DNA of 64,000 nucleotides, from the NCBI RefSeq assembly GCF_008271695.1, contig NZ_VKKY01000003.1, forward strand, positions 1,460,490-1,524,489, written 5' to 3'. This stretch comes from Rufibacter hautae. Lineage in GTDB: Bacteria; Bacteroidota; Bacteroidia; Cytophagales; Hymenobacteraceae. Below are positions 18,940-27,645 of this stretch, in pieces; the first letter of the stretch is position 1; each line of letters opens with the position of its first letter. The notes under the pieces were generated by a model that saw nothing but the letters and a program-made list of their open reading frames with translations, did not search any database and was not told where the DNA came from. The position numbers and the translations under genes were made by a program.

Positions 18940-19997
18940 AAAAGATTTTGCTCATAGAAGACAACCACGAGATACGGGAAAACATAGCCGAAATATTGTC
19001 ATTAGCCAATTACGAAGTGCTGGAGGCGGAACATGGCAAATCCGGCGTAGAGGTTGCAAAAAATGAAAAGCCAGACTTGATCATCTGTGACATCATGATG
19101 CCCCAGTTAGATGGCTATGGCGTTTTGCATATGTTGAGCAAGAACCCGGCTACCTCGGGCATTCCTTTCATTTTCCTGACAGCTAAATCAGAGAAAGAAG
19201 ACTTCAGAAAGGGCATGAACCTGGGCGCTGATGATTACCTCATCAAGCCCTTTGACGACCTAGAACTGCTGGATGCGGTGGAGATGCGCCTGAAAAAAAA
19301 CGAGATCCTGCGGGCCGATTTTCAAAAGAACGCCCAAGGGCTGAACGACTTCCTGCAAGAGGCCAAAGGGATGCAGGAACTCAACAATCTCATCTCCAAT
19401 GAGCGTAAGATATCGGTATTCAAGAAAAAGCAGCAGCTCTTTGCCGAAGGCCAATACCCGCATTCATTGTTCTTCCTGAATAAAGGCAAAATTAAAACAT
19501 ACAAAACCAACGAGGAAGGCCGCGAATACATCACGAATTTGTATAAAGAAGGCGAATTCATTGGCTACCAGGACCTAGTGGAAGACCAAACCTACCGTGA
19601 ATCGGCGGAGGCATTGGAAGACTCCGAGGTATGTATCATCAACAAAGACGATTTCAACTCGCTGCTTTACCAGAACCGCGACGTCGCCAACAAATTCATC
19701 AAAATCCTCTCCGGCAACCTGGCAGACAGAGAAGAACGGCTCCTGAAGCTGGCTTACAACTCCGTGCGCAAGCGGGTAGCCGAGGCCTTGTTGCTAGTGG
19801 AGAAACAGTACCAGCAAAACGAAGGCAAAAACACCCAGGTGAATATTTCCCGTGAGGACCTCGCCAACATTGTGGGGGCTTCAAAAGAGACAGTGATCAG
19901 AACCCTTTCCGACTTTAAAGACGAAAAGCTCATCAGCATCAAAGGCGGTAAAATCACCATCCTCAACCTGGAAAAGCTTATCAAGATGCGCAATTGA
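18936..19997 (+). CDS. Response regulator-CRP/FNR fusion transcription factor
   Basis: A 353-aa protein joining a receiver (1-122; D52 in LIICDIMMP, K104 in IKPF) to a cyclic-nucleotide-type beta-barrel (about 155-260) and a CRP-type HTH (about 300-335). The recognition helix reads ASKETVIRTLSDF: E318 and R322 match the E and R that contact the TGA core in CRP and FNR. There is no FNR-type Cys cluster, so oxygen is probably sensed through phosphorylation, not an iron-sulfur centre. It merges FixJ-like and FixK-like roles. It is the obvious candidate to bind the ATGAC-N4-RTCAT sites before ccoS, ccoG, its own operon, hemA and perhaps hemN. Confidence 0.9.
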   Translation: MKKILLIEDNHEIRENIAEILSLANYEVLEAEHGKSGVEVAKNEKPDLIICDIMMPQLDGYGVLHMLSKNPATSGIPFIFLTAKSEKEDFRKGMNLGADDYLIKPFDDLELLDAVEMRLKKNEILRADFQKNAQGLNDFLQEAKGMQELNNLISNERKISVFKKKQQLFAEGQYPHSLFFLNKGKIKTYKTNEEGREYITNLYKEGEFIGYQDLVEDQTYRESAEALEDSEVCIINKDDFNSLLYQNRDVANKFIKILSGNLADREERLLKLAYNSVRKRVAEALLLVEKQYQQNEGKNTQVNISREDLANIVGASKETVIRTLSDFKDEKLISIKGGKITILNLEKLIKMRN

Positions 19998-20419
19998 GGT
20001 GGCCCTGTATAGCCCTAAATAAATTAAGTAAGCTTGCCAAACCCTACATATTCCGTCCCTCTTTGAAGGGGGTAGGGGGGATGACAAGGCCGAGTCAAAA
20101 ACCGTTTTCCCATGCTACAGGGAAAGGGCAACCACAAGGGATTGCTCCTACATTTCGGGAATGCCATGATCTGCACGAGTAATTATCTTAAGCCTTAAAA
20201 CCGAGACGGAAGACGAGCACAGATTTTGGCATGTTAATAAACTTCCCGGTTTTATGAAAAGTATGTTTCAGGCCTAGTTTTCCAAATACGGCACCAAAAC
20301 TGAAACCTAAAGTTCTTTAAGTAAAAAGCAGGTCCTTGAGAAAAGTCCTGTGAAAGAATGACAAAGATCATATTCTGTCACCAGCTGTATCCCGAAATTT
20401 GTAGGGTAATCTGGAACCC
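19998..20419. other. Non-coding gap before hemA
   Basis: No supported gene. The only structure I can see is the CRP/FNR-type operator at 20358-20371 and the -7-like GAAATTTG at 20394-20401. Confidence 0.6.
20358..20371. promoter_or_regulatory. CRP/FNR-type operator upstream of hemA
   Basis: ATGAC-AAAG-ATCAT, the same sequence as the ccoG site. The centre is 29.5 bp before GAAATTTG (20394-20401), a -7-like element, matching the geometry at ccoS. Confidence 0.6.
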
Positions 20420-21694
20420 ATGCAGCCACAATTCAAAGCCCTTTCTTTATCTTATAAGAATGCACCCATCGCCATCCGCGAGATGGTTTCTCTGAACGAG
20501 ATTGGGTGTAAGAACTTATTGGACAAGGTAAAAGAATTCACTTCTGCGCAGGAAGTGTTGGTACTCTCTACCTGTAACCGTACCGAGGTGTACTACAGCG
20601 CTGAAAAAGACTTGTCCAAAGCAATCATCAAACTCATTGCCATAGAAAAAGGCTTTTTAGCTACCAGTACTGTTGCACCTTATTTCCTGACTATTTTGAA
20701 CCATCAAGAAGCGGTGCGGCATTTGTTTAACGTAGCCATTGGGTTGGAGTCGCAGGTGGTGGGTGATTTCCAGATTCTGAACCAGGTAAAGAGAGCCTAC
20801 GCCTGGGCCGCCGAGGATCAGGCCGTAGGGCCATTTCTGCATAGATTACTGCACACCATTTTTGCCACGAACAAACGGGTCAGCAATGAAACCGCTTTCA
20901 GAGACGGGGCTGCCTCAGTGGCCTACGCCACCGTTGAACTGGTGGAGGAAGTGACAAAAGGGATTGAGAACCCAAGGATATTGATGATTGGGGTAGGGGA
21001 GATGGGCAGTACCGTTTGCCTGAACTTTCAGAAAACCAGCCTCAAAAACGTAGTGGTGGTGAACCGTACGCACCAAAAAGCAGCGGATTTGGCCAGAAGA
21101 GCCAATGCGCAGGCTGTTTATTGGGAAGACATCCACCAAGAGTTACAGCTGGCAGACGTGGTGATTTCCTCTGTCCCCGGCGACTGCTTCTCCTTGGGCA
21201 AAGAAAGTTTCCAGTTCCAGGCTCTTCAAAGCCCTAAGTTCTTCCTGGATCTTTCAATGCCGCGCAGTATTCAAGATGATTTGGCCACACTACCAGGCGT
21301 TAGGGTGTACAATGTAGATACCATCAAGAACCGCGCAACTGAAGCCGTTGCCAAAAGACTGGCTTCGGTGCCAGCCGTCCAAAATATCATTTCTGAGGCT
21401 ATAGCTGAGTTCAATGCTTGGGAAAGGGAAATGGAGCTTTCCCCGGTTATTCAGCAATTCAAAAACAAACTGGAAGAAATTAGGAAGCAAGAAGTGGCTC
21501 GTGCGCTGAAGAAAGTAAGTGGCCAGGAAAAGGAACTGCTGGAAAGCGTCACTAAAAACTTCCTAAACAAGATCATGAAATTGCCGGTGATAGAACTGAA
21601 AGCAGCGTGCCAACGGGGGGAGTCTGACGCTTTGTTAGACGGACTTGCGATGCTGTTTAAGCTGGAAGATCAAACCGAGTTTGTAGAAGCTTAA
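20420..21694 (+). CDS. hemA: Glutamyl-tRNA reductase
   Basis: First committed step of C5 tetrapyrrole synthesis: NADPH-dependent reduction of glutamyl-tRNA to glutamate-1-semialdehyde. It is 424 aa, the usual length. Nucleophile C52 in STCNRTEVYY, the catalytic-domain segment GLESQVVGDFQILNQVK, the NADPH-binding MIGVGEMG near 195, and a helical dimerisation C-terminus. Other heme genes do not follow, so it is probably monocistronic. The operator upstream suggests that heme synthesis is raised together with the heme-rich cbb3 oxidase. Confidence 0.96.
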   Translation: MQPQFKALSLSYKNAPIAIREMVSLNEIGCKNLLDKVKEFTSAQEVLVLSTCNRTEVYYSAEKDLSKAIIKLIAIEKGFLATSTVAPYFLTILNHQEAVRHLFNVAIGLESQVVGDFQILNQVKRAYAWAAEDQAVGPFLHRLLHTIFATNKRVSNETAFRDGAASVAYATVELVEEVTKGIENPRILMIGVGEMGSTVCLNFQKTSLKNVVVVNRTHQKAADLARRANAQAVYWEDIHQELQLADVVISSVPGDCFSLGKESFQFQALQSPKFFLDLSMPRSIQDDLATLPGVRVYNVDTIKNRATEAVAKRLASVPAVQNIISEAIAEFNAWEREMELSPVIQQFKNKLEEIRKQEVARALKKVSGQEKELLESVTKNFLNKIMKLPVIELKAACQRGESDALLDGLAMLFKLEDQTEFVEA

Positions 21695-21961
21695 TCCAGA
21701 ATCAGAAAAAAATGGTAAACCTGCTTTCCGGTTCCGAGAACATGTTTACTTAAGCTATTGGATTATTTTGAATCCCCTGGCATTGACCACTGCTCTCTAT
21801 CTTTAATACTGGAATGGCTGAAATGAGGAGCTTGAGGTTAAGAACAACAGCATTTCAAATCCAAATTTAAGGGGCATCTTACCTCACAAAGGCATTCCAT
21901 ACTTTAGATTTTAAAATTATCGAGTTTGAGGATTTGTACGTAAATATGTATGCATTTAAAA

Positions 21962-22006
21962 ATTAAAAGCCAGTAAGTCCTTGTCTTACTGGCTTTTAAT
22001 TTTTTA
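21962..22006. terminator. Terminator downstream of hemA
   Basis: Perfect 16-bp stem (21962-21977 with 21985-22000; AAAAGCCAGTAAG type), 7-nt loop, then TTTTTT. Confidence 0.8.
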
Positions 22007-22778
22007 CTCTGTAGTCCGTAGGGTAGTTGAACTACTGGACAGCTGATTATTCTTAGTTTTTGAACTAGGCTGAGCATAATGATTGGTGCAAAAATGCCAG
22101 TCAAAGGTAAGGCCATTCAATCCTTTCTTACCCTTATTTTAGACCTTGCACCAGTAATGGGGTAGTTTATGGGTCTGTGTCAGGCACATTTTAAACTAAG
22201 GAAAATACCTAGCAACACAAAACAGACCTCCACGGCCTTAGACAAAACCCTCCACTCGGATAAACTACCGCCACAAGGCTACCAAGCCCCTCATAGGCTT
22301 TTCTGCAATGTTAACCGGTTTCAGGCTGAACAAATGGTTTTGTTCAAACTTTTTCGAGCCAGACTTTAGGTTACAAGAAATCCGGTGTTTTTTGAACGGA
22401 TTTAAATTGAATTTTTCCTTCTTTTGTTTGTTATTTTTCATGTGGCAAAGAGTTTTGAAAAAAAACATTTAGCAAATGGAAAAAAAATGAGCCTCAAGCC
22501 TTGTTTTTACCATAAGCTTATTAAGTCATAAAAATTGAATTATTCTAATGTGTAGGGGTGGAGGTGAACTTAGAGATAAGCAAGCTTAATTATTGATTAT
22601 ATATTTCGACATAAATCATTAATTCTGTTTTATATTTTTTAACAATAAAATAAGAGTCAATATGAGGGTGTTAAATCTAATATATACATAGGCTCGATGA
22701 TGTTATTAATGTCGACGGAAACTGTCCCTGGTGTCAAATGTTGTCATAAAATATTTTTTTAACCTTAGCATGTGATTA

Positions 22779-22827
22779 AAATAATATATCACATTATAAT
22801 TTATAATTATGATGTGATATATTATTT
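22779..22827. repeat. 49-bp AT-rich palindrome
   Basis: Arms 22779-22794 and 22812-22827 are perfectly complementary over 16 bp (AAATAATATATCACAT type). After one mismatch the symmetry continues as ATAATT-TAT-AATTAT, giving a nearly continuous 23-bp arm. It lacks a T-run and lies about 230 bp upstream of the HTH gene. It could be an operator, a cruciform or a recombination or replication site. Confidence 0.6.
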
Positions 22828-23055
22828 ATAACTCGAATAAATCATTTTAGGCTATCGGATAAATTGACTTTGTGAATTGTAATTCTCCCATTGATTACCC
22901 AGTATAGTGTTTTCTAAATATGCTGTAAGAAGGCTGTGATTGCCTGTATAAGGGGTGTAATGGGTGTATTGGTGTTAAAAAAAAGTCGTTCCTTTGTGGT
23001 CATAATTGAACGTTTTACAAACCATTAAACATGAAGAAAGATTATTTAAACCCGC

Positions 23056-23463
23056 GTGAGTAGAAAGGGTGAAAGAGTGACAACAGGGGACGGTACACAG
23101 GTGCTTAGAGCCTGGAGACCGAGCTCGGAAGCAGGCGGAAAATCCGTTCTGTTATCAGAATCAATTGCTGTTGAATTAGGGAATTCAATCGGCTTTTTGA
23201 TGGATCTACTAAAACCTTTTTTTGAGGAGATGGTCAAAGAAGCCGTCTCCAGCCACTTCCCTGCCAAAGAAACGAAGGAGCCGGAGGACTTTCTGCTCAC
23301 CGTAAAAGAGGCGGCAACGCTGCTGTACGTGACGGAGACCACGATTCATGCATGGAAGAAGAATGGGATTATTCCCTTTCATCGGAAAGGCCGCCGGGTG
23401 TACTTCAAGCGGAGCGAGCTGCTCGCCTCCCTCAAGTCCGTCAACCTGAACTGGCAGAATTAA
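23056..23463 (+). CDS. Excisionase/MerR-like HTH DNA-binding protein
   Basis: Up to 135 aa. The C-terminal part (about 79-127) is a classic HTH_17 domain: LLTVKEAATLLYVTETTIHAW, then the wing IIPFHRKGRRVYFKRSEL. Such proteins are excisionases or small regulators in integrative elements. The start is uncertain: GTG at 23056 has no good ribosome site and the first ~45 residues look unstructured; ATG at 23200 would give about 87 aa. It precedes the polymerase-like gene by 80 bp and is presumably its regulator or the element's Xis. Confidence 0.7.
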   Translation: MSRKGERVTTGDGTQVLRAWRPSSEAGGKSVLLSESIAVELGNSIGFLMDLLKPFFEEMVKEAVSSHFPAKETKEPEDFLLTVKEAATLLYVTETTIHAWKKNGIIPFHRKGRRVYFKRSELLASLKSVNLNWQN

Positions 23464-23543
23464 CAAACTATTTCCAACCAAAGGTAGCAGGCCCGCAAGG
23501 CGGGTCCTGCCACCGCTTTGCCAAACGACAAACAAAACGAACC

Positions 23544-25355
23544 ATGACAAAACGAATCCATGGGGCGGCCCAAGCCGCACAAGAGGGGGAAAATCCGCCC
23601 AAACCGGAGCCGCCGCTCTACTTCAAACTGCCCTGCAGCCTGGATCTGGAGACATTGCTCCCGGGGCGCCGAGGGAGAAAGCTCCGCCTGTATGCCTACC
23701 TCTGCCATATCATCTACGAGAGGAGGATATGGGGACGGAAAGAGGAGGGGGATGACCCCTTCGTTCAGTTGGACAGCAGGTTGCTGCAGAGAATGTTGAC
23801 TACGAAGGAGTGCAGATCGGTCATAGGGGACCTGGTCCGTGCAGGGGTGATAGAGGTTGACGGTAAATTCCGAATAGGAAAAGAGGGTGAGCCGGGGAAG
23901 TGCCTGGGCTACCGGTTCACCCCGCGGTACGCAAACCAAGGGCCGAAGCAGGTGGCCATCCACAACAAGCCCCTTAAGAAGAAGGCAATGAGGGGAATAG
24001 AAGAGTTTAAGCCTTCTGTTGGGGAGGTGTTGGGTTTCCTCTACCGGCAGCTCGGAAGGATTAGGGTTGACCTGCCGAAGGGCTACGGTTTTGTGCTGTG
24101 GCCCGCTAGGAGGGAGACATACCTCAGAATGCTGGTCTGGATCAAGGCCAATCCCAAGGTCTGTTTCACCTACCCGAGGATTCGCCCCGCTTCCCGCCAA
24201 GCGGAATGGGGCCAGCGCGCAGCAAGGGGCCGTGCAGATTTGCACGGGGGTGTTGCAGATCTGCATGGGGGGGTGTTGCAGATCTGCACGGGGTGTGCAG
24301 GATTGCATGGGGGTGTTGCAGCCGTGCAACAAGCAGGGAAGGTGGTTGCACAGCTGCAACCAGGTAGGGGAAAAGGTGCCTTTGTTCAACGTATGGCTGC
24401 ATCCTTGCGACACGTGGTTGCACCGGTGCACAACCAGCTGTCCATTTCGCGCGCAGGCACAAAGGGCACCGCCCTCCATTCAGGCGCCTTATTTTCGGTC
24501 CTTTCCGCCAAGCACCAACTCCTTTCCTGCCTTCCCCCCAAGGCTCCCTCTTCTTTTTCCTTTCTCTCTCCCCCTTATTCCTATCCCTATCTCCTCCCTC
24601 CTCCCTCCTCCCTATGTTATCACTTTTTAGACTTCAACACTTCCGCACGGCTGCTCCGCCTGGACAGGATGCACCAAGCCAGCATAGGGGAGGTCCCGTG
24701 GGACTTCAAGGTGGACGGGAAGACGGGGCGCCTGTTCACCAACCTCACCAACCTGAACAAGGAGCTCAGGCCGTTCCTGCGGCTGGACACTGGGCAGAGG
24801 ATCGTGGGCATCGACATCGGCGAGTGCCAGCCCTTCCTGCTGGGGATGCTCCTCCTGGAGCAGGCCCGGTCCCTGTGGCCGGAGGGGCTGCCCGGGGACG
24901 TAAGCCATTTCCTCGATCTGACGGAAAGCAGGAGTTTCTACCGCTTCCTCATGGACCGCTGCGGGATCGCGGAGGGGGAACGGGACGCTTTCAAGAAGAC
25001 CATCTTCGGGGGGATCTTCTACTGCTCCGACTGGAAGGCCGAGCACCCCGATAACCTGGCAGGCAGGACTTTCATAGAGCACTTCCCAAGCGTGTATACT
25101 GCCATCAAGGGGATGAAAGGGAGGGATAGGAGCACCCTGCCGATTCAGTTGATGAGGAAGGAGAGCGAGATCGTCATACACGGGGTGTGCCGGCAGGTGG
25201 CCGAGATGGGGGACGAGGGCTTCTTCCTCGCCACGATCCACGACTGCATCCTCACTACGGAAGACAAAGCGGATATAGTGGAGGGACTGCTTGGGGGGAT
25301 ATTCATGAAGAGATACGGCAGGGTGCCATTCCTCAATAGGGAGGAGATCAACTAG
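23544..25355 (+). CDS. Element replication protein: winged-helix-like N-terminus and family-A DNA polymerase-like C-terminus
   Basis: A 603-aa protein I do not know by name. Residues about 20-125 look like a winged helix (RLLQRMLTTKECRSVIGDLV then a beta wing). Residues about 230-355 are low-complexity and encoded by the dyad array and pyrimidine tract. Residues about 394-600 align by eye to the palm/fingers of family-A DNA polymerases: TGRLFTN (395-), motif A IVGIDIGECQPFL with D424, O-helix R480-x3-K484-x3-F488, a Q-helix-like EIVIHG, and motif C TIHDC with H566-D567. There is no exonuclease domain. An upstream in-frame extension would overlap the HTH gene and is rejected. A role as replication initiator and polymerase is inferred. 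Confidence 0.6.
   Translation: MTKRIHGAAQAAQEGENPPKPEPPLYFKLPCSLDLETLLPGRRGRKLRLYAYLCHIIYERRIWGRKEEGDDPFVQLDSRLLQRMLTTKECRSVIGDLVRAGVIEVDGKFRIGKEGEPGKCLGYRFTPRYANQGPKQVAIHNKPLKKKAMRGIEEFKPSVGEVLGFLYRQLGRIRVDLPKGYGFVLWPARRETYLRMLVWIKANPKVCFTYPRIRPASRQAEWGQRAARGRADLHGGVADLHGGVLQICTGCAGLHGGVAAVQQAGKVVAQLQPGRGKGAFVQRMAASLRHVVAPVHNQLSISRAGTKGTALHSGALFSVLSAKHQLLSCLPPKAPSSFSFLSPPYSYPYLLPPPSSLCYHFLDFNTSARLLRLDRMHQASIGEVPWDFKVDGKTGRLFTNLTNLNKELRPFLRLDTGQRIVGIDIGECQPFLLGMLLLEQARSLWPEGLPGDVSHFLDLTESRSFYRFLMDRCGIAEGERDAFKKTIFGGIFYCSDWKAEHPDNLAGRTFIEHFPSVYTAIKGMKGRDRSTLPIQLMRKESEIVIHGVCRQVAEMGDEGFFLATIHDCILTTEDKADIVEGLLGGIFMKRYGRVPFLNREEIN
24231..24430. repeat. Iteron-like array of TGCA-N4-TGCA dyads
   Basis: Eight dyads with first TGCA at 24233, 24254, 24277, 24296, 24317, 24347, 24398 and 24419 (the seventh is imperfect, TGCA-N4-TGCG). 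Most steps are 19-23 bp, about two helical turns. Some arms are longer, for example GGTTGCA-CAGC-TGCAACC at 24344-24361. The array lies inside the polymerase-like gene and encodes a DLHGGV-type repeat in that frame. It resembles replication iterons. Confidence 0.7.
24544..24613. repeat. 70-nt polypyrimidine tract with minus-strand G4 motif
   Basis: Only three purines (all A) in 70 nt of the plus strand. CCC runs at 24585, 24596, 24603 and 24610 give four GGG runs on the minus strand, a quadruplex-compatible spacing. It follows the dyad array and lies within the same open frame. Confidence 0.65.
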
Positions 25356-25663
25356 GAAATGGAAGCAATAAACAATGAGAGCATTGGTCCCATGCCGACA
25401 AATCGCTGCAACGTAGCCTATGGTGCCGGAACCCCAGTGAGAGGTCCCCCATCAGGCAATCGCACGGGGAAGAAGGTGCCTTTCCCCTCCAAGGGATCCA
25501 TTATGGGTGCTGAGAAAATGAGCTTTCGGCCAAGGTATCCATCAGGGTGCTTCGGAAAGGCCTTGTGAAGTATGGGGGAGAATTTTGTAATAGCCAGTGC
25601 TCACCCCGAGGCTGGAAGCAAGGCACAGAGAAATCAATTAAGTAAATTTTTATTAAAATCAAG
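25356..25663. other. Gap after the polymerase-like gene
   Basis: An open frame of 69 codons begins 4 bp after the stop (25359), but it has no recognisable domain and a non-protein-like composition, so I do not call it. No clear terminator. Confidence 0.4.
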
Positions 25664-26371
25664 ATGAAAAAGAACCAACATAAAAAGAACCAACATAAAT
25701 CGAGCAAAGAAAAACAGAGCGTAAATGAAGACAAGGAGTTTCAACGTTTTTTCGAGGAAAAGCTCAAAATGTATGAGGAGGATTTAACTCTTCCGGAGTT
25801 TGAGTTTGTGGTGAGCTCTGGACGGAGAATGGCTTATATGGTGCTTCAAATGGTAAGGGATGACAATGAGGCATTGGTGTCGGCTGGCAATGGTAAGGCC
25901 TTGCACCCTGACGGTTACCATCTCAATGAGAAATGTGCCGAAGTGATGATCCGCTTGTTGAATGTGTTATATGATGTGGGGGCAAAAGGGCGCCTTGTCA
26001 GAGAGCAATCAATAGGCACGCAGGTACCGATGAGCACACAGAGCGAATTGATCACCTCAGACCAGACTGAAAAGTGGGCTGAGCGCCATAATCCCTCAGC
26101 CATGCTCAAACGGTATGAGAGATTCGAGAAAATGGAAGATTTCCCGTTCCTGATGGAGATGGGGCAACAGGGAATAAACAGTTCGCTGGAAATGGCTGAA
26201 CGCGACCTCATAGAAATAATGGACAAAGGCGGTGATCTGCAGTCTGACCCAGTGTACCAGATCACAGTGAAATGGGTCGAGTCGATGCGCCGGGTGAAGG
26301 AGATCCTGAAAGGGGCAAGGGAAAGGGGCGCCTCCGGGTTTGTCTTTCAGAGCGACAGTGCCACTGCCTAG
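25664..26371 (+). CDS. Uncharacterised accessory-element protein
   Basis: A 235-aa soluble protein with no family I recognise. The N-terminus is lysine- and glutamine-rich with a direct KKNQHKKNQHK repeat (residues 2-12), which could be a nucleic-acid-binding tail. The middle (about 28-120) is predicted helical with conserved-looking GRRMAYMVLQMVRDD. The C-terminal third is also helical and ends in a short Gly/Ser tail. No catalytic motif is visible. Codon use is intermediate between the GC-rich polymerase-like gene and the AT-rich flank. As cargo or a helper of the polymerase-like gene it may act in plasmid-like maintenance, but nothing in the sequence shows this. Confidence 0.6.
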   Translation: MKKNQHKKNQHKSSKEKQSVNEDKEFQRFFEEKLKMYEEDLTLPEFEFVVSSGRRMAYMVLQMVRDDNEALVSAGNGKALHPDGYHLNEKCAEVMIRLLNVLYDVGAKGRLVREQSIGTQVPMSTQSELITSDQTEKWAERHNPSAMLKRYERFEKMEDFPFLMEMGQQGINSSLEMAERDLIEIMDKGGDLQSDPVYQITVKWVESMRRVKEILKGARERGASGFVFQSDSATA

Positions 26372-27393
26372 GAAGTCCATCCAGTCCAATTACCTAAAAA
26401 CTGTTAAAAGCTACATCATAAGCTCGCGCCAACGGGACAGTGTTTCCCTTCAATAGAAGGCGCATGTTGCGCCGAATGCATCTATGCCCTTACGCCGGCG
26501 CATAGAACAGGAATCGAATCTACTTTAAATTTAATGCAACGATATCTAGAATCCTCTGGGAGGTGCCAGGCAGGTACTCTTGGATTGGGTAGGGCGCCGC
26601 CATGCCCTGTCAGTGCGTTTGAAACAGCTGGGCATGTGCAAGGAGGTAGGGCCCAATCTGGGCATTGTCTATTAACAAATCTGGACAATGTAAGGAAAGC
26701 AGTGGTAGGTGTTGAATTGCCTGATCCTTCGGCAAAATATAAATGTAATTATCTAGACCTGCTATCGCCATCCTTACTTCTGAGGGACAAATTACCCCTT
26801 GCATGTGGACAGGGAATGCTAATCTATATTCGGGATGTTCCAGATAGGAAGGAATGAGGTTGTGTAGGAACAGCCATTATTTTCGCTGCAGCATCTATCA
26901 ACGATAGTTGTCAATGATAATCCAGAAGATTAAAGCCCTGAAAAATAACCTGAAGTCTACTTTCATTTACAAACAAGAAAGGAAAGTTCAGGAGAGTGAT
27001 AAAAGTTTAAACCCTACCCAAAAAGCAACCCCAAGGCTACAGGAAGAAAAAGGCGGAAACGAAAACTATTTGTTCATGATGGATTTGCTTTTGGGCTGGC
27101 CAGGAGCAAGGGTGAGAAAAACCGTGAATACTTCCTTTCTTTGGGTAAAAAAAGAAAAAAGCGAATATGGTATTTAGTACTCAAATGCTGAATGCATCAA
27201 GAGAAAACTTTCACTCGAGGGAACTACAAAGTAGATAAATGTTTAGCACAACGCCGCTCTTTAACCGCTATTATTCAAAAAGTAAGTAAAAGAGAAGCAA
27301 ATGAAAGTAGATAAGCAAAAATGGCTAAGGTGTCCGAATAATTTCCGAAGCAAAATAAAAAGCCCCTTAATTTTAAATTAAGGGGCTTTTCTG
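26372..27393. other. Non-coding, palindrome-rich right flank of the accessory element
   Basis: About 1 kb. Visible dyads: GGCGCATGTTGCGCC (26459-26473), CTATGC / GCATAG (26482-26505), and nested arms ATTGGG/CCCAAT around CATGCCC (26601-26607) / GGGCATG (26630-26636). CAGGAATCGAATCT at 26508-26521 echoes the T-arm of tRNA-Arg (13 of 14). A small frame at 26908-27177 contains LLLGWPGARV, like the end of DUF1294 proteins, but its remainder does not fit, so it may be a relic. No integrase. Confidence 0.45.
27358..27390 (-). terminator. Terminator of tRNA-Arg
   Basis: Perfect 13-bp stem (27358-27370 with 27378-27390; AAAAGCCCCTTAA type) with T-rich sequence following on the minus strand, directly after the tRNA. 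Confidence 0.85.
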
Positions 27394-27465
27394 TGGCCAC
27401 GCCAGGAATCGAACCTGGATCGAGAGCTTCGGAAACTCCAATACTATCCGTTGTACTACGTGGCC
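27394..27465 (-). tRNA. tRNA-Arg (anticodon CCG)
   Basis: A 72-nt cloverleaf on the minus strand: acceptor GGCCACG / CGTGGCC, anticodon loop TTCCGAA with CCG at positions 34-36, T-arm CCAGG-TTCGATT-CCTGG, discriminator A. CCA is not encoded. The 3' end faces the accessory element, the usual arrangement for integration at tRNA genes. Confidence 0.93.
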
Positions 27466-27645
27466 CGGAATTGCGATGGCAAATGTAGGAAATGACCACC
27501 AAGAAAGAAAGGCCCTTCCGGCGTTTTTTGCCGGATTCAGGAAAAAGGGTTAAAAAAACGGCAGCGTGGCAGAGATGGTCTCTAACATTTTAAGCTTATA
27601 ACAGTTTACACAAGAAGACCATTTCAATTACCAAAGCTTAAACCT

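Follow-up and report, generated by a model that had tools for sequence, protein, structure and literature searches.

The question raised by this locus is whether one protein may both recognize a replication origin and begin DNA synthesis there. The gene concerned is an open reading frame (ORF) of 603 aa in Rufibacter hautae, within the 64,000-nt stretch of contig NZ_VKKY01000003.1 (positions 1,460,490 to 1,524,489 of the forward strand; assembly GCF_008271695.1) that was analysed and is referred to here as the window. An earlier note, made from the sequence alone, had described this ORF as a family-A DNA polymerase-like domain fused to a winged-helix-like region, and possibly a self-contained initiator-polymerase. 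The observation is confirmed overall and the interpretation has gained support: with a probability of roughly 0.6, the ORF, carried by a mobile-looking element, is predicted to encode a replication initiator fused to a family-A DNA polymerase resembling the transposon-virus polymerases (TV-Pols), with an in-gene origin of seven dyads.

The polymerase domain

An AlphaFold2 (AF2) model combined with a fold search gave the thumb–palm–fingers fold of the family-A DNA polymerase superfamily, and on the strength of that model we regard this fold as nearly certain for the residues of the thumb, palm and fingers. The best 50 PDB rows in each of two fold searches were DNA polymerases, alignment to family-A polymerases beginning at residue 150–160 in most rows. 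Structure prediction, which the earlier note had proposed as a check, covers palm and fingers; the profile searches gave no family-A match. A Pfam scan of the ORF protein found no family at E ≤ 1, and so neither PF00476 nor RepA_N; hhalign of the protein with PF00476 gave 1.5%; and the PF00476 profile matched this genome at one place only, the host PolA, leaving the polymerase ORF unmatched.

The two palm Asp residues and the O-helix R-x3-K-x3-F, the signature of the family-A superfamily, are present. Conservation was read from two alignments, A1 (of 30) and A4 (48 rows). The A4 loci were collected by two patterns, one of which contains motif A, and the conservation of motif A is therefore taken from A1, whose loci were collected without it. 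The PolA order of residues that had been traced by eye is borne out: D424, K484 and H566-D567 are kept in 30/30 and R480 and F488 in at least 90% of A1, and R396, before motif A, is invariant. In A4, motif C has D567 in 47/48 and H566 in 36/48 and takes the form HDS with S in 38/48, and the F762-like Phe of the O-helix is kept in 43/48 A4 rows. The absence of an exonuclease domain also holds, the domain being a minimal one of TV-Pol type without nucleases. We take Q429 to occupy the place of the steric-gate Glu of PolA; invariant at that position, this Gln might loosen the choice between dNTP and rNTP.

A dyad array and a pyrimidine tract inside the gene

Exactly between the codons for thumb and palm lie seven TGCA-N4-TGCA dyads, starting at 24233, 24254, 24277, 24296, 24317, 24347 and 24419 (spacing 21, 23, 19, 21, 30 and 72). 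The window holds eight such dyads, seven of them in the array, and 100 whole-window shuffles gave a mean of 1.8 and a maximum of 5. Among all 4-N4-4 patterns in the window the TGCA-N4-TGCA array ranks first, the maximum in 30 simulated windows being 3, and local simulations of the linker DNA (n=20,000) produced at most two dyads. The peptides coded at the seven dyads differ from one another, and the repetition is therefore one of DNA rather than of protein. About 90 nt past the array follows the most C/T-rich 100 nt in the window. The array, like the fold, was computed directly. We think it likely that the array is an initiator-binding origin, and, with somewhat less assurance, probable that the protein itself binds it.

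The DNA of the array and tract codes for a linker with a predicted local distance difference test score (pLDDT) below 50 over residues 207–359 of the AF2 model. The linker between thumb and palm would be disordered because its DNA is kept to serve as origin. Modelled separately, the N-terminal domain looks winged-helix-like (Table 1); its best structure matches (4pql, 4pt7, 5kbj and 4pta) are weak, Foldseek gave no match at E ≤ 1e-3, and RepA_N initiators were absent from the listed matches of a PDB profile search with this domain.

Table 1. Features of the proposed initiator-polymerase gene and its surroundings (window coordinates)
Feature	Coordinates	Strand	Remarks
HTH_17/excisionase-family DNA-binding protein, 135 aa	23056..23463	+	directly upstream of polymerase ORF
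Proposed initiator-polymerase ORF, 603 aa	23544..25355	+	
N-terminal winged-helix-like domain, residues 20-158	23601..24017	+	separately modelled, pLDDT 88.5
Thumb helices, residues 158-203	24015..24152	+	model helices 161-170 and 177-202
Disordered linker, residues about 204-359	24153..24620	+	coded by origin-like DNA
Seven TGCA-N4-TGCA dyads	24233..24430	+	proposed initiator-binding iterons
Polypyrimidine tract, 89% C/T	24521..24620	+	proposed unwinding region
Palm and fingers, residues 370-603	24651..25352	+	pLDDT 89-98 over 371-600 (AF2 model)
R396, invariant Arg before motif A	24729..24731	+	30/30 in A1, 48/48 in A4
Motif A, D424 to P430	24813..24833	+	D424, Q429, P430 each 30/30 (A1)
O-helix R480-x3-K484-x3-F488-x3-F492	24981..25019	+	alignments A1, A4
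Motif C, H566-D567	25239..25244	+	30/30 in A1
tRNA-Arg(ccg)	27393..27465	-	likely integration edge

A second copy with different repeats

The same genome contains a second copy (copy 2, locus L078) at C1:1116594-1118591. Window DNA is similar to it over 23025–23921 (79%), 24558–25359 (81%) and 27314–27465 (77%), whereas 23921–24558 has no DNA match. In copy 2 the gene is split by stops into a 189-aa winged-helix-plus-thumb ORF and a 259-aa palm/fingers ORF. Between the two lie seven direct CAAAAATG iterons (spacing 33, 21, 32, 33, 33 and 70), which are all the occurrences of that motif on that strand of the 17 kb of copy 2 analysed, and the pyrimidine maximum of the same 17 kb spans the start of the palm/fingers ORF.

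Between the copies, synonymous divergence (dS) is highest in the winged-helix half (1.42), followed by the palm half (0.58) and the HTH gene (0.29), and the ratio of non-synonymous to synonymous change (dN/dS) is 0.29 for winged helix plus thumb, 0.27 for palm and fingers and 0.40 for the HTH gene; both halves of the polymerase gene are therefore read as under selection. The HTH_17 proteins are 79% identical. Since the winged-helix half is the most diverged and the iterons have changed, the sequences look as if the binding domain changes together with its sites between copies.

Repeats at related loci

The three longest linkers in A4 belong to the window protein (171 aa), to locus L063 of Taibaiella soli (159 aa) and to L057 of a Bacteroidetes metagenome-assembled genome (155 aa), and the linker DNA of all three has an excess of repeats, the observed level being reached in 0, 3 and 0 of 200 simulations. 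This test covered 22 of the 48 A4 rows, those with at least 150 nt of linker DNA and with DNA at hand, so that P0002 and P0003 (linkers of 86 and 73 aa, without a DNA row) were left out; none of the other 19 linkers tested (56–121 aa) had such an excess, the nearest being L034 (12/200). Patterns written after inspection give four in-gene iterons in L063 (spacing 41, 84 and 84) and five in L057 (spacing 41, 31, 42 and 42), and neither linker has a pyrimidine tract.

Elsewhere in the family, repeats seem to lie 5' of the gene. The 500-bp upstream stretches of 57 family genes were enriched in repeats relative to those of 377 control genes (Mann–Whitney P 2e-4), at least 40 nt of upstream repeats being found for 20/57 and 67/377, respectively; the 57 are those of 58 loci with enough upstream DNA and include the copy-2 palm half. 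Nine duplicate loci had been removed before these counts and those of neighbours and strongest arrays. L079, the nearest relative with DNA, has repeats of the upstream type. When each locus was scanned without bias for its single strongest array, that array fell in the gene or the preceding 700 bp in 9/34 cases against an expectation of 5.4, which is not significant (P 0.08).

Loci L045, L080, L036, L050, L040, L096, L090 and others have a leader hairpin in the 260 nt that precede the polymerase gene. It is often followed by GTTCCA(A/C)CC, and its loop can pair with sequence further downstream; in L045, L036, L096 and L090 this partner stands directly before the start codon, a possible translation-controlling pseudoknot. 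When the hairpins of 13 loci chosen by eye were compared with simulations, seven beat at least 194 of 200 and three loci gave no hairpin. The window has a strong GC hairpin, read by eye, at 23483–23514, just 5' of the start codon of the polymerase gene.

Proposed mechanism and comparison with known systems

Our current working model is that the element would first be excised; the winged-helix domain, to judge from the array and the fold, would then bind the seven dyads of its own gene, the neighbouring polypyrimidine tract would open, and the tethered thumb–palm–fingers polymerase, without proofreading, would start or extend the first strand there. Helicase and the remaining replication functions would presumably be supplied by the host or a helper. 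The active-site residues are seen; polymerase activity and priming are suggested by analogy with the proven CCPol-MP primase (PMC7581432). It is rather doubtful that the protein primes by itself. Tentatively, and at slightly less than even odds, one may go further and think of a one-protein replicon, in which a single polypeptide would recognize and open an origin placed within its own coding region, exactly between thumb and palm codons, where it splits copy 2 into two ORFs, and would start synthesis with its own family-A polymerase domain, the binding domain and iterons being exchanged as a cassette.

This kind of enzyme is defined by the TV-Pols (Iyer, Abhiman and Aravind 2008, PMC2579912), proteins of 400–600 aa with a two-helix thumb, a beta-hairpin Arg, a palm Asp pair and a fingers RxxxK, and without a nuclease, all of which are found here. 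TV-Pols lie beside integrase or resolvase genes in mobile elements and have members in Bacteroidetes (PMC2579912); the family has this mobile-gene setting, but no integrase, resolvase or transposase was seen adjacent to the window copy itself. A subset has an uncharacterised N-terminal domain that also occurs as a separate gene, predicted to be all-helical (PMC2579912), whereas our model has a beta wing. A large TV-Pol branch is linked or fused to a D5-like helicase; here, no helicase or primase, D5-type included, is among the 25 most frequent of 81 neighbour Pfam families. The TV-Pol text (PMC2579912) describes no origin or iterons. The single reference compared, a Microcystis phage Ma-LMM01 protein taken as a TV-Pol by position and weak motifs only, gave no significant match (E 2–4).

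CCPol-MP of staphylococcal SCCmec has been shown to be a polymerase and, with MP, a DNA primase (PMC7581432). It resembles the window protein as a family-A polymerase that lacks an exonuclease, belongs to a mobile element and adjoins an iteron origin, which here is a proposed one. It differs in that the helicase Cch2 binds its iterons, at a site near cch2 rather than within the polymerase gene, and in keeping the steric-gate Glu (PMC7581432), which is Gln in 30/30 here; MP binds single-stranded DNA and has a predicted OB fold (PMC10061031). RepA_N of plasmid pSK41 has an N-terminal winged helix, its Rep boxes occupy the central part of rep, and its linker is coded by the origin; in pPR9 the N-domain and origin are swapped together (PMC5703833). 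The window gene is similar in its putative mid-gene sites, a linker coded by the proposed origin, a predicted winged-helix-like N-terminal domain and a C-terminal functional domain; the last is a five-helix DnaG-binding domain in RepA_N (PMC5703833) and a predicted thumb–palm–fingers polymerase here. We describe the window gene as a RepA_N layout with a TV-Pol-like end.

Two further groups can be set beside it by description. The divergent phage family-A polymerases divPolA1 and divPolA2 likewise lack an active exonuclease; divPolA1 keeps a dead exonuclease domain, and the N-domain of divPolA2 is globular and shows no known similarity (PMC11348598). The bacterial PolA1, PolA2 and PolA3 groups have the polymerase fold in common with our protein, and the part consulted, which covers Pol I orthologues, a minor PolA1-like group, actinobacterial PolA2 and exonuclease-active PolA3, describes no winged-helix fusion (PMC12926913). 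Among the titles listed in literature searches, which covered few subscription papers, none dealt with a family-A polymerase whose own gene harbours an origin.

If the model is true, an origin hidden in the initiator gene, as in RepA_N plasmids, and a family-A polymerase used as primase, as in SCCmec, would be combined in one protein, possibly a new minimal priming system, and a large Bacteroidota family called hypothetical would acquire a testable role. Copy 2 offers a natural split polymerase, with the winged helix and thumb in one ORF and the palm and fingers in another.

Alternative explanations

The protein could instead be an ordinary TV-Pol primase-polymerase of an integrative element, the origin being recognized by another protein, such as the HTH_17 protein, an initiator of Rep_3 type or one from a helper phage, and the N-domain only holding single-stranded template or a partner. 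CCPol-MP does function without being its own initiator, since Cch2 binds the iterons (PMC7581432), L095 and L096 encode a Rep_3-type protein separate from the polymerase, and the resemblance of the N-domain to initiators is weak. We nevertheless consider this explanation unlikely: of the 147 neighbour proteins of 18 loci, 12 of which come from the window and copy 2, only two match Rep3_N, those of L095 and L096, and the winged-helix half and iterons are most diverged between copies, which the HTH gene and palm half are not.

Lower still we place the idea of a decaying remnant, in which a dying polymerase gene has a linker of foreign repeat DNA that is open by chance, copy 2 representing the next stage. 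The low dN/dS of both halves and the intact catalytic residues argue against decay, as do seven iterons and a pyrimidine tract that recur at one position in the two copies despite different sequences, and in-gene iterons in the distant L057 and L063; what suggests it are the stops that split copy 2, a reading-frame openness of the linker that is not significant, and the lack of an integrase or attachment repeat seen at the window copy. A single-subunit RNA polymerase or RNA primase making RNA at promoter-like repeats is very improbable, for although the Gln at the steric-gate position is invariant, motif C has the HDS form, T7-type RNA polymerases are relatives (PMC2579912) and one family member is named DNA-directed RNA polymerase in UniRef, the best 50 matches of each fold search are DNA polymerases and the F762-like Phe is largely kept.

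Genomic setting and distribution

The HTH_17 gene matches Pfam HTH_17 (1.9e-12) and NCBIfam excise (3.2e-10). On the other side, synteny with three relatives, taken from six with the transglutaminase-like gene, spans that gene, the next one, which is OsmC-like, and tRNA-Arg(ccg), breaking off at 27358, 27383 and 27393, no more than 35 nt from the 3' end of the tRNA in any of the three; the names OsmC and transglutaminase are our own reading. Copy 2 adjoins tRNA-Arg(cct). Inspection of the window copy showed no integrase ORF, and the tRNA was the only known RNA family in 22400–27600. A comparison of the tRNA region with 19501–27300 for attachment repeats gave three direct matches, each of only 11 nt and one of them (26508) to the tRNA itself; these were taken as chance. 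Past the polymerase gene and short of the tRNA, a 235-aa ORF at 25664–26371 has no assigned function and is likely element cargo; it is present in 1/16 genus genomes, this one only.

Family matches were found in 52/150 genomes of the host's family (this genome counted), in 14/296 across the phylum, in seven IMG/VR contigs, in five uncultured phage records of 595–735 kb (two alike in length and match) and in one Hymenobacter plasmid, NZ_CP060788; NCBI labels the members hypothetical. Protein database searches with single proteins gave 6 and 39 matches (queries included), and the A1 profile gave 3 proteins of 7990 candidates scored. The plasmid carries another replication protein, which rules out the polymerase gene as its sole one. 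A defence role was also rejected: PADLOC matched neither P0001 nor the L016 protein, nor any of three further ORFs.

An integrase lies upstream on the same strand in 13/58 loci, the HTH_17 gene is found in 11/58 in addition to the window, and a resolvase cluster occurs in 12 (duplicates counted). The 25 most frequent neighbour Pfam families include Phage_integrase (11 matches), HTH_17 (8) and HNH_3 (7). A terminase-like cluster includes L095, L096 and L041, Terminase_6C being just below cut-off in the L095 member. Small proteins of 109–166 aa encoded shortly 3' of the polymerase gene form one cluster in seven loci (duplicates counted), for example L041:10516-11016, L036:9523-9879 and L096:9974-10315; they are RusA-like by eye, and the two that were scanned had no Pfam match above cut-off. 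The PHROG Holliday junction resolvase was matched by 2/147 neighbour proteins. Several loci have homing-type endonuclease genes (HNH/NUMOD/AP2) next to the polymerase gene, among them L043:7390-7890, L096:8962-9501 and L095.
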